In this document: in pieces, positions 4,208 through 48,653 of the stretch | Numbering within the stretch: the stretch's first letter is position 1 | Layout: every line of letters starts with the position of its first letter | Assembly: GCA_017792345.1 (NCBI GenBank) | Contig: CP051228.1 | Coordinates: 2,494,501 to 2,558,500 of the forward strand | Reading direction: 5' to 3' | DNA: 64,000 nucleotides | Source: Mesoflavibacter sp. | GTDB lineage: Bacteria > Pseudomonadota > Alphaproteobacteria > UBA8366 > Aestuariispiraceae | Program-made: the position numbers and the translations under genes | Notes under the pieces: model-generated | What the model was told of the DNA's origin: nothing | The model's input: the letters and a program-made list of their open reading frames with translations, nothing else | Database searches by the model: none

Positions 4208-4281
4208 CGTGGCGACCGGACGAAGAGCCGGACCGACGGATCCACCGTCCGAAAACGACAAATCTCTACTGGGAGGTAGAC

Positions 4282-5271
4282 ATGAAATTCAAGTTCAGTG
4301 CCGCCGTCGCGGCCGTTGCTCTGACTGCCGGTCTCGCCGGGTCGGCGTCCGCCGCCGAACTGCGCCTGTCCCATCAATGGTCGACGTCCGACGTCCGCCA
4401 CCAGGTCGCGCAGATCGTCGCGGACGAGGTCGCGGCCGCCAATGTCGATCTGGAAATCAAGATTTTTGCTTCCGGCTCGCTGTTCAAGGCGCGTGAACAG
4501 TACCGCCCGCTGTCCCGCGGTCAGCTCGATATGACTGTCCTGCCGCTGTCTTATGCCGGTGGCGAGCGTCCGGAATACAACCTGACCCTGATGCCCGGCC
4601 TGGTGAAGAACCACGACCATGCGGCTCGGCTGAACTACAGCCCGTTCATGGACGAAATTCAGAAGATCATGGCCGAGGACGACGTGATGGTCCTGGTCCA
4701 TGGCTATCTGGCCGGCGGCTTCGTCGGCGTCGACCGCTGCATCACCAAGCCGGAAGATGTCGCCGGGCTACAGACCCGCGCCGCGGGCAAGGCCTTCGAA
4801 GAGATGCTGGCGGCCGCCGGTGCCTCGATCGCCTCCATGGCGTCGTCGGAAATCTACAACGCGATGCAGACCGGCGTGCTGCAGGCGGTGAACACGTCTT
4901 CGTCGTCCTTCGTGTCCTACCGCATCTATGAACAGGTGAAGTGCTATACGCCGGCCGGCGATGTCGCGCTGTGGTTCATGTATCAGCCGCTGCTGATGAA
5001 CAAGTCGACCTATGAGTCGCTGAACGACGCCCAGCGTGCGGCGCTGGACGCGGCGGCCAAGAAGGCCGAAGCCTATTATCTGGATGAGGCGAAGAAGGAA
5101 GACGCCGCGTCCGTTGAGGTCTTCGAAAAGGCCGGTGTCGAGATTGCCAAGATGACCCAGGATGAGTTCAACGCCTGGCGCGATCTGGCCAAGGCCTCGT
5201 CTTACAAGAGCTTCGTCGAATCCGTCGAAGACGGTCAGAAGCTGCTCGACATGGCTCTCGCCGTGGAATGA
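4282..5271 (+). CDS. matP: TRAP transporter solute-binding protein (DctP/MatP-type)
   Basis: Periplasmic substrate-binding subunit of a tripartite ATP-independent transporter, 329 residues. The ATG at 4282 has a strong Shine-Dalgarno (GGGAGG) and begins a Sec signal peptide with cleavage after ASAA (MKFKFSAAVAAVALTAGLAG). The frame is also open far upstream, but the signal peptide and ribosome site decide this start. The mature protein begins with the family-typical LRLSHQWSTSDVRH and contains the central LQTRAAGKAFEEML region where DctP proteins carry the substrate arginine. It is the first gene of a P-Q-M-ligase operon. The coupling to a malonyl-CoA synthetase-like gene suggests malonate or a related dicarboxylate. 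Confidence 0.9.
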   Translation: MKFKFSAAVAAVALTAGLAGSASAAELRLSHQWSTSDVRHQVAQIVADEVAAANVDLEIKIFASGSLFKAREQYRPLSRGQLDMTVLPLSYAGGERPEYNLTLMPGLVKNHDHAARLNYSPFMDEIQKIMAEDDVMVLVHGYLAGGFVGVDRCITKPEDVAGLQTRAAGKAFEEMLAAAGASIASMASSEIYNAMQTGVLQAVNTSSSSFVSYRIYEQVKCYTPAGDVALWFMYQPLLMNKSTYESLNDAQRAALDAAAKKAEAYYLDEAKKEDAASVEVFEKAGVEIAKMTQDEFNAWRDLAKASSYKSFVESVEDGQKLLDMALAVE

Positions 5272-47435: not shown

Positions 47436-48248
47436 ATGTCAAAGTCCAACCGCCTCAATTCTGACTGGCAACGGCATCATCGCAGTCTGAAAGCGTGGAA
47501 CCAGGCGATGGGCCGCTGGTCCCGCTGGCTGGTACCGCGTCTGTTTGCCCGGCGCGACTATATATTTGTCGCCGCCCTGCCGAAGTCGGGGTCGACGCTG
47601 TTGAACAATGCCCTGATCCGCCTGACCGGCCATTTTCCCCATCCGTTATGCGATCACCATCTGCATGAACAGAACATCATGCACAGCCGTCTGATCGACA
47701 GTTGGGGCTTCCGATCCATCGCGACCCAACACACTTTGGCGACGCCGCTGAATGTCGACTATCTGGGGCAGTTCGGGATCCGGCCGGTCGTTCTGGTCCG
47801 CGATATCTTCGACGCGGCGGTGTCTTTGCGCGACCATACCCAGCGCGAGGCGCTGGCGACGGCGACCTTCCTGCCGCCGCCCGGTTATCCCGCGATGAAC
47901 GATGCGGAGAAACTGGACGCGATCGTCGATCTGGCTCTGCCCTGGCATCTGTCCTTCGTCGCGTCCTGGCAGGCCGCGCCGCTGGATGTGCTGACGATTT
48001 CCTATGAGGAGATGATGCGCGACCCACAGGCGGTTCTTGGAAAGGTTCTGAACCATATCGGCCTGCCGGACTTGCAAGCCGAGACCGCCTCCGCCTGGCA
48101 GGGGGCTGCAAGCGACGACGACACGCGCCGCAATGTCGGCCGCATCGGCCGGGGTCGCGCCGAATTCAGCGCCGAACAGACCGAACGCCTGCGTCGGCTG
48201 ACGGCGCGATACCCGGAAACGGATTTCTCAATCATCGGGCTGGATTAG
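47436..48248 (+). CDS. Sulfotransferase family protein
   Basis: Cytoplasmic sulfotransferase of 270 residues that would use PAPS as donor. The 5'-phosphosulfate loop is FVAALPKSGSTLLNNALIRL near residue 45. The 3'-phosphate site is VVLVRDIFDAAVSLRDH near residue 115. LTISYEEMMRDPQAVLGKVL is the usual third helix. The ATG at 47436 has GGGAG 5 nt upstream. The acceptor is unknown; the preceding membrane protein may make it. Confidence 0.85.
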   Translation: MSKSNRLNSDWQRHHRSLKAWNQAMGRWSRWLVPRLFARRDYIFVAALPKSGSTLLNNALIRLTGHFPHPLCDHHLHEQNIMHSRLIDSWGFRSIATQHTLATPLNVDYLGQFGIRPVVLVRDIFDAAVSLRDHTQREALATATFLPPPGYPAMNDAEKLDAIVDLALPWHLSFVASWQAAPLDVLTISYEEMMRDPQAVLGKVLNHIGLPDLQAETASAWQGAASDDDTRRNVGRIGRGRAEFSAEQTERLRRLTARYPETDFSIIGLD

Positions 48249-48286: not shown

Positions 48287-48318
48287 AAAAAAATTACCCC
48301 CAAGCAAAAGCTTGGGGG
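48287..48318 (-). terminator. Intrinsic terminator of the minus-strand RNA
   Basis: A perfect 9-bp stem, CCCCCAAGC (48297-48305) with GCTTGGGGG (48310-48318), and a 4-nt loop. On the minus strand it is followed by TAA and seven T residues (48293-48287). No U-run exists on the plus side, so it terminates transcription moving leftward. Confidence 0.8.
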
Positions 48319-48414
48319 CAAGTTGAACAGGGAGGCTTCACGTCTGGGAGACGTAGGGCCGAGCCGATAGGGACATCGGTCGGCGTCGCTGCAATGCAGC
48401 AACTGAAGCACCCT
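48287..48414 (-). ncRNA. Predicted structured small RNA (four-way junction), unassigned
   Basis: Minus-strand RNA of about 128 nt. A closing stem pairs AGGG/GCTTC (48329-48332, 48335-48339) with GAAGC/CCCT (48405-48409, 48411-48414). It encloses three adjacent hairpins: 48385-48403 (8 bp, 3-nt loop), 48358-48384 (5+5 bp with one unpaired base between) and 48340-48354 (6 bp, 3-nt loop). The terminator follows. Two hairpin loops and the 3' side of the closing stem expose C-rich UCCC or CCUCCC sequences, like anti-Shine-Dalgarno motifs of alphaproteobacterial sRNAs. It does not match the SRP RNA, RNase P RNA or tmRNA signatures I know. 6S RNA is not excluded. It has no coding frame of note. Confidence 0.6.
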
Positions 48415-48653
48415 CTACATAGGCGTCTTGGACGGCTGCGCCTAGCGCCCAAAACGTCACACCCGACATGCGCTTATTGCATGGCTGATCGGTTTGACCC
48501 GCGCGATTCGCTTTGTATGGGAATAAACACCTGAAATTAGGGGAATTTTGCGTGCCGACGGGTCAGGCCGGCGCATCAACCGGCCTGTTGCCGAAATATC
48601 ACATTTATTCGATTTTCTGGAAGTGAGGCCGAAACTTGGCCTTTTCCGGCGGT

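Follow-up and report, generated by a model that had tools for sequence, protein, structure and literature searches.

The predicted RNA gene, its fold and its promoter

The window, a 64,000-nucleotide stretch of contig CP051228.1, contains a 405-bp gap bounded by open reading frames that end at 48248 and 48654. The minus strand of this gap, from 48414 to 48287, folds at -68.4 kcal/mol into a closing stem, three hairpins and a terminator, and none of 200 shuffled sequences was equally stable (z -9.26). An earlier note on this DNA had described this fold, with its 9-bp terminator stem, U7 and the 405-bp gap, and our calculations confirm it. The closing stem held up only in its inner part. As the -10 hexamer TATGTA (48416..48421, minus strand, like the other elements of this gene) places the start near 48409, at the G of GCUUC, the outer closing stem AGGG:CCCU is probably upstream of the transcript. 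Nor is it conserved: of 15 family copies, 9, 7, 10 and 13, respectively, form its four pairs. The predicted RNA of about 123 nt (48287..48409), whose start we infer from the -10 box and whose end from the terminator, keeps the four-way junction at -61.8 kcal/mol.

The inner closing helix, whose 5' strand GCUUC (48405..48409) pairs with GAAGC (48339-48335), is invariant in all 15 family copies. Within it lie hairpin 1 (48385..48403, GUUGCUGC-AUU-GCAGCGAC), the sequence-variable hairpin 2 with its UCCC loop (48358..48384) and hairpin 4 (48340..48354, ACGUC-UCCCA-GACGU), which displays CUCCCA and is nearly invariant across the class. A linker that is highly conserved among relatives, GAAGCCUCCCUGUUCAACUU (48320..48339), forms a second anti-Shine-Dalgarno stretch. 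The RNA ends with an intrinsic terminator (48287..48321), a perfect 9-bp stem CCCCCAAGC/GCUUGGGGG with U7. The gene is present in a single copy in its own genome according to our covariance model of the conserved 3' core (R1; next best E 0.1). A 52-amino-acid open reading frame over the RNA (48294-48452, TTG start) was rejected as a small protein gene because it begins upstream of the predicted RNA start.

A weak -35 element, TAGGCG (48439..48444), stands where the class profile has T-N-G. Further upstream is a putative LsrB/VtlR-type box in extended form (48459..48483) that matches the published one; its palindrome, ATGCAATAAGCGCAT at 48482-48468, is centred at about -66. The palindrome ATGC-N7-GCAT occurs in all 15 copies of the window's family (f1) that have the 5' part (one with N6), with its centre 52.5-54 bp upstream of the -10 hexamer. 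Among distinct members with 300 nt of upstream sequence, 103 of 156 contain it exactly, compared with 26 of 4433 background windows from the same loci. The promoter profile reads AGCY-ATGCR-N5-YGCATR-N-C-N-G-N3-T; with the -10 hexamer placed at -12, the GCAT of the profile stands at -61 and its last T at -49. The LsrB-binding consensus reported for PabcR1, GCAT-N3-TG-N3-T, lies between -61 and -49 (PMC8844928), and the same consensus appears in PMC7486931. LsrB has also been reported to bind TGCA-N6-GCAT in PnfeR1 by EMSA, with binding lost on mutation (PMC10746234). The window promoter reads GCAT-N3-GG-N3-T; the G at the second consensus place is kept, and the first is not T. A LsrB/VtlR box in the promoter, a mark of AbcR genes, is present as judged from its letters.

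Searching the own genome with the extended box pattern gave one exact match, the window promoter, and 17 matches with one mismatch (6 for the reversed control); as the pattern was drawn from members that include the window copy, only the uniqueness of the exact match is informative. One of the sequences with a single mismatch, AATGCGTTTTGCGCATGGCTGCATT (L258:4093-4117, G000:C1:1274092-1274116), contains the full GCAT-N3-TG-N3-T and stands upstream of open reading frames that we read as putative speD and speE. It is possible that this box marks a second LsrB target.

Conservation of the fold and distribution of the 3' core

We assessed the structure on an alignment (A2) of 15 of the 19 f1 copies, leaving out the four that have no GCUUCAGUU 5' part (L196, L197, the second copy of L198, and L205). 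When folded singly, all 15 sequences formed the inner closing helix, hairpin 1, the middle hairpin, hairpin 4 and the terminator. The named structure pairs in 92.4% of the cells of A2, compared with at most 46.5% for versions slid along the alignment, and 36 cells were doubly changed compared with 14.1 in shuffles. The earlier note had called for compensatory changes in the stems. These were found for one pair of hairpin 1 and five pairs of the terminator among the 15 sequences, and for four pairs of hairpin 2 among the 7 A2 copies in which this hairpin is short (A3). Hairpin 4 and the inner closing helix are invariant, so covariation neither supports nor refutes them. Measures that count pairs or pair types did not rise above shuffles (222 and 380 of 500 shuffles reached the A2 values, and 65 and 232 those of A3). 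The support is thus for the named helices and not for the junction as a whole.

The two halves of the RNA are distributed differently. In a BLASTN search of 98 genomes, the 5' half was common within f1, and the 3' core, which consists of the hairpin ACGUC-UCCCA-GACGU, the linker GAAGCCUCCCUGUU..ACUU and the terminator, was nearly identical far beyond it. GCUUCAG was found upstream of the core in none of 139 members outside f1, with f1 membership assigned by hand for this count, and GCUUC occurred anywhere in 19 of them. Thus, the four-way junction is a family-level form. The widespread part is hairpin 4, the linker and the terminator.

R1 was built on a seed alignment (A1) of 66 of the 68 chosen seeds, leaving out L111 and L155. 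Most of these seeds came from a pattern scan, so the invariant columns of A1 are partly so by construction. RNAalifold recovered only four terminator pairs on A1 because MAFFT shifts the terminators, and a structure given by hand was therefore used for R1. The model matched 199 of 386 alphaproteobacterial genomes at E<=0.001, with up to six matches per genome; 158 of the 386 reached E<=1e-9, and the other 41 of the 199 were weaker. A pattern scan of named genomes found at least 118 stretches with the core. Many alphaproteobacterial MAGs stand among the 80 titles listed, including three labelled Rhizobium, and the genera listed include Azospirillum, Thalassospira, Nisaea, Kiloniella, Neoroseomonas, Reyranella, Magnetovibrio and Caedibacter. 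Plasmid records gave one core match, in Tistrella.

Three loci from the window's genus (L196:5048, L197:1980 and L198:14775) hold a second copy of the core whose 5' part is unrelated, and there the repeats TTAGTAAC/GTTACTAA stand upstream in place of the LsrB box. As these copies lack the box and have another 5' part, the 3' module appears to be used by differently controlled RNAs. The core copy at L205:5063 (genome G010) has no GCUUCAG 5' part and a different terminator, and no box was found there.

The earlier note could match the RNA to no known family, and this agrees with our covariance search: no Rfam 15 family reached its gathering score in the window, and none did so at the RNA in 20 further loci from across the set. 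6S RNA, which had been named as a possible identity, had no Rfam match in the window. SorY, suhB, SorX and BjrC1505 likewise stayed below their gathering scores there. The best sub-threshold matches, to SorY (24.7 bits, gathering score 111) and suhB/mmgR (23.9 bits, gathering score 41), rest on the linker CUCCCUGUU..ACUU and the terminator, which they have in common with the window RNA. When 19 weak core loci from 14 genomes were compared with Rfam, three were named BjrC1505 and one suhB, and two overlapping stretches were named SorX. The linker and the terminator thus form a module common to several known alphaproteobacterial sRNAs. The SorX, BjrC1505 and suhB loci (L213, L227, L219, L223, L226 and L221) carry a CCUCCCUG-N-ACUU-like linker and a terminator, as does the window at 48287-48339.

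Cuckoo RNAs carry CCUCCUCCC in hairpin loops. This string does not occur within 48287-48409. Caulobacter ChvR and GsrN were considered and rejected; ChvR reportedly lacks conservation beyond C. crescentus, and BLAST matches of GsrN are reported to stay within the Caulobacteraceae. The outline and early Results of an Azospirillum RNA-seq paper (PMC7685610) name no family that could be matched to the sRNA. Papers that contain the core letters are, by title, all unrelated, in a search that covered the alpha-r and cuckoo literature incompletely and so does not establish absence from print.

Association with lsrB and predicted targets

The ar15 (AbcR) model matched one of 387 genomes of the class, G439, in three copies, and the gene order there is trxB, lsrB and two abcR genes. 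Of the three G439 abcR promoters, one has the palindrome ATGCGGACAGCGCAT with AAC-TG-GCA-T after it, and another lacks the palindrome but fits the published consensus; GCAT-N3-TG-N3-T is thus present in two of the three. The order trxB-lsrB-abcR has also been published for Agrobacterium (PMC7486931).

With the G439 LsrB as query, 236 of 386 genomes gave a match at 1e-45. Coordinates were listed for 149 of the 236 LsrB genomes and for part of the 199 genomes with the core. Among these listed matches, 94 genomes had both coordinates, and in 75 of them the core is on the strand of LsrB, 148-905 bp downstream of it; the core list used here includes seven added weak loci, which contribute 6 genomes to the 94 and 5 to the 75. 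At the level of genome contig loci, LsrB stands within 1.5 kb upstream of the core in 81 of 98 and is missing there in 17 (the 98 are 118 loci minus 20 with too little upstream DNA). Strong core hits and LsrB occur together in 151 genomes, the core alone in 7, LsrB alone in 85 and neither in 143 (Fisher P 2e-35, by a test that ignores genome relatedness). For all core hits, the corresponding numbers are 183, 16, 53 and 134. At eight other loci, a TrxB motif stands upstream of LsrB in seven, and the core follows LsrB directly in five of these seven.

The window's own genome differs in its arrangement. Its lsrB ortholog (G000:C1:1170294-1171187, 50% identity over 298 amino acids to the G439 LsrB) lies 1.37 Mb from the window sRNA. 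We did not find lsrB beside trxB in this genome; what follows trxB is an open reading frame that we read as bactofilin-like. In this genome, the sRNA does not have the location downstream of trxB and lsrB that is characteristic of AbcR. The five f1 genomes drawn likewise have lsrB and the sRNA far apart or on different contigs.

Among the twelve best LsrB loci, the palindrome occurs within 1.2 kb downstream of the gene in four (L267-L270) and not in the other eight. At L268 and L270, the DNA after LsrB has ATGC-N7-GCAT and a C-rich stretch that ends in a terminator-like T-run, and there is no core match. This stretch is perhaps another LsrB-linked sRNA, unrelated to the window family.

We scanned 1.26 Mb of the own genome, with 992 genes from a home-made caller, for the perfect complement of the hairpin 4 loop. 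CUGGGAG occurred within 30 nt upstream of seven starts, and the seven genes encode four DctP proteins, one SBP_bac_6, one DctM and one 17-kDa antigen. DctP-like genes make up 8 of the 992 genes and 3 of the 113 other GGGAG genes (hypergeometric 6e-8, for a subclass noticed post hoc). A predicted target lies in the window itself, where CUGGGAG (4269..4275, plus strand) stands at the ribosome-binding site of a gene for the TRAP transporter binding protein DctP (4282-5268). A hold-out of 311 further genes from the own genome was negative: one gene had CUGGGAG, a prmC-like one, and both DctP genes lacked the heptamer. A second genome (G012, 299 genes) had one CUGGGAG gene, which encodes a BCCT transporter.

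The hexamer UGGGAG, to which we changed after seeing the two binding-protein genes of G012, was also examined. In the own genome, 9 of 22 hexamer genes encoded uptake components compared with 9 of 52 controls (P 0.04), with the two control draws giving 1 of 22 and 8 of 30. If the two window genes with the hexamer are included, of which DctP was annotated and the other was not, the count becomes 10 of 24 (P 0.04). Restricted to binding proteins, the counts were 4 of 22 genes and 2 of 52 controls (P 0.06). In G012, 4 of 5 hexamer genes and 0 of 19 controls were uptake components (P 0.0005). The class 'uptake component' is our reading of Pfam names; the control ABC_tran protein at L301 was counted as uptake and efflux families were not. 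The predicted link to transporters in the own genome is thus supported but modest. Among the loci of the own genome, L332:17624-18673 encodes pPIWI_RE-associated domains by Pfam, as in a defence-type island.

A model for an LsrB-linked regulatory RNA

Based on these data, we propose that the window RNA is an LsrB-activated anti-Shine-Dalgarno sRNA that, outside the rhizobial lineage, takes the position and function of AbcR and forms a sequence family of its own. We give this reading a probability of about 0.8. The structure looks like that of a real sRNA gene from a large, uncatalogued alphaproteobacterial family, and the available sequence evidence favours the suggestion in the earlier note of a regulatory sRNA with exposed anti-Shine-Dalgarno loops. 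The note's suggestion of a new regulatory RNA holds in that no Rfam family reaches threshold, but the RNA is not free-standing; it groups with the LsrB-linked sRNAs of the AbcR type. Among the LsrB-linked anti-Shine-Dalgarno sRNAs, it represents a widespread family that is new.

In our model, a LysR-type regulator, LsrB/VtlR, would bind ATGC-N7-GCAT at about -66 and activate a weak sigma-70-type promoter, as suggested by the identity of the box, its position and the synteny. The resulting RNA of about 123 nt would end at the intrinsic terminator and expose two sequences, CUCCCA on hairpin 4 and GCCUCCCUGUU within the linker. It would then pair with ribosome-binding sites of the UGGGAG type, chiefly in mRNAs for solute-uptake transporters, and block their translation. 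The sRNA probably silences nutrient-uptake genes at the level of translation, much like the AbcR RNAs of rhizobia.

AbcR1 and AbcR2 (alpha-r15, RF02345) are the closest comparison. They resemble the window RNA in the LsrB/VtlR box at -61..-49, in the gene order trxB-lsrB-sRNA, which the core has in relatives of the window genome, in a CUCCCA hairpin loop with another C-rich stretch and a terminator after it, and in transporter targets, which are predicted for the window RNA. CUCCCA in the loop of hairpin 4 is the AbcR motif M1, which has been mutated experimentally (PMC5461406). As the two agree in regulator box, neighbourhood, seed and class of targets, the RNA works like AbcR as far as sequence tells. 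It is not AbcR as a sequence family, because the ar15 model stays below its gathering score in the window and has no match in the own genome, R1 has no match to AbcR, and M2, GUUCCC between the hairpins, is absent, with CCUCCCUGUU in its place. The window RNA also differs in its extra 5' hairpins, its single copy and its distance from lsrB. The string given as aSD1 of S. meliloti AbcR, CUCCUCCC, is absent from the window RNA. For S. meliloti, two papers disagree on LsrB and AbcR: PMC7486931 reports no involvement and PMC8844928 reports activation of AbcR1.

NfeR1 (alpha-r14) is likewise reported to be activated by LsrB through TGCA-N6-GCAT, the same palindrome, and it has several anti-Shine-Dalgarno loops, as does the window RNA, and targets ABC transporters (PMC10746234). 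It differs in being described there as three hairpins with identical anti-Shine-Dalgarno motifs, and it has no Rfam match in the window. SorY, SorX, suhB/mmgR and BjrC1505 carry the 3' module, CCUCCCUGUU-N-ACUU or a close variant with the terminator, and differ from the window RNA in their 5' parts.

Among the matches listed, 75 of 94 genomes have the core just after lsrB and on its strand. This could also mean that the core is no more than the lsrB 3' UTR with its terminator, the window copy being a displaced remnant. We find this very improbable, because a -10 hexamer and the LsrB box stand upstream of the RNA, and the window copy, although far from lsrB, keeps its promoter, box, structure and near-invariant loops. 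It is also unlikely, in our view, that the C-rich loops act by binding a protein, as a sponge or chaperone ligand, and not by pairing with mRNAs. The linker and terminator common to SorY, SorX, suhB and BjrC1505 do suggest a shared protein-binding module, perhaps for Hfq, and sequence conservation exceeds what upkeep of the helices needs (most seeds having been chosen by pattern). However, the complement of the loop is enriched at transporter ribosome-binding sites, and the loop itself is the mutated M1 motif. Protein binding and mRNA pairing can coexist in one sRNA.

The RNA might instead be a true anti-Shine-Dalgarno sRNA under a different regulator whose box is similar. LysR boxes have the generic form T-N11-A (PMC8844928), and a first survey of the own genome gave 69 LysR-like candidates, of which six were scored and one passed 1e-45. 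We consider this quite unlikely since LsrB is indicated by the sequence and position of the box as well as by adjacency.

Beyond control of the window RNA by LsrB, we lean towards a broader hypothesis: LsrB and a neighbouring anti-Shine-Dalgarno sRNA would form an old alphaproteobacterial unit in which the RNA has been rewritten repeatedly (as the window family, AbcR, perhaps NfeR1 and the L268/L270 stretches) and the regulator, box and target logic have stayed constant. AbcR would then be one local form of a class-wide uptake switch.

Of the alphaproteobacterial genomes sampled, roughly two fifths carry the core (158 of 386), yet the window and the 20 further loci matched no Rfam 15 family at threshold. 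If our reading is correct, the circuit of LsrB and AbcR that is known in rhizobia and brucellae would reach many other lineages, and a readable regulator, box and seed would be at hand for tests in easy organisms. It would also be an example of sequence change in an sRNA that retains its gene neighbourhood, promoter and seed logic.
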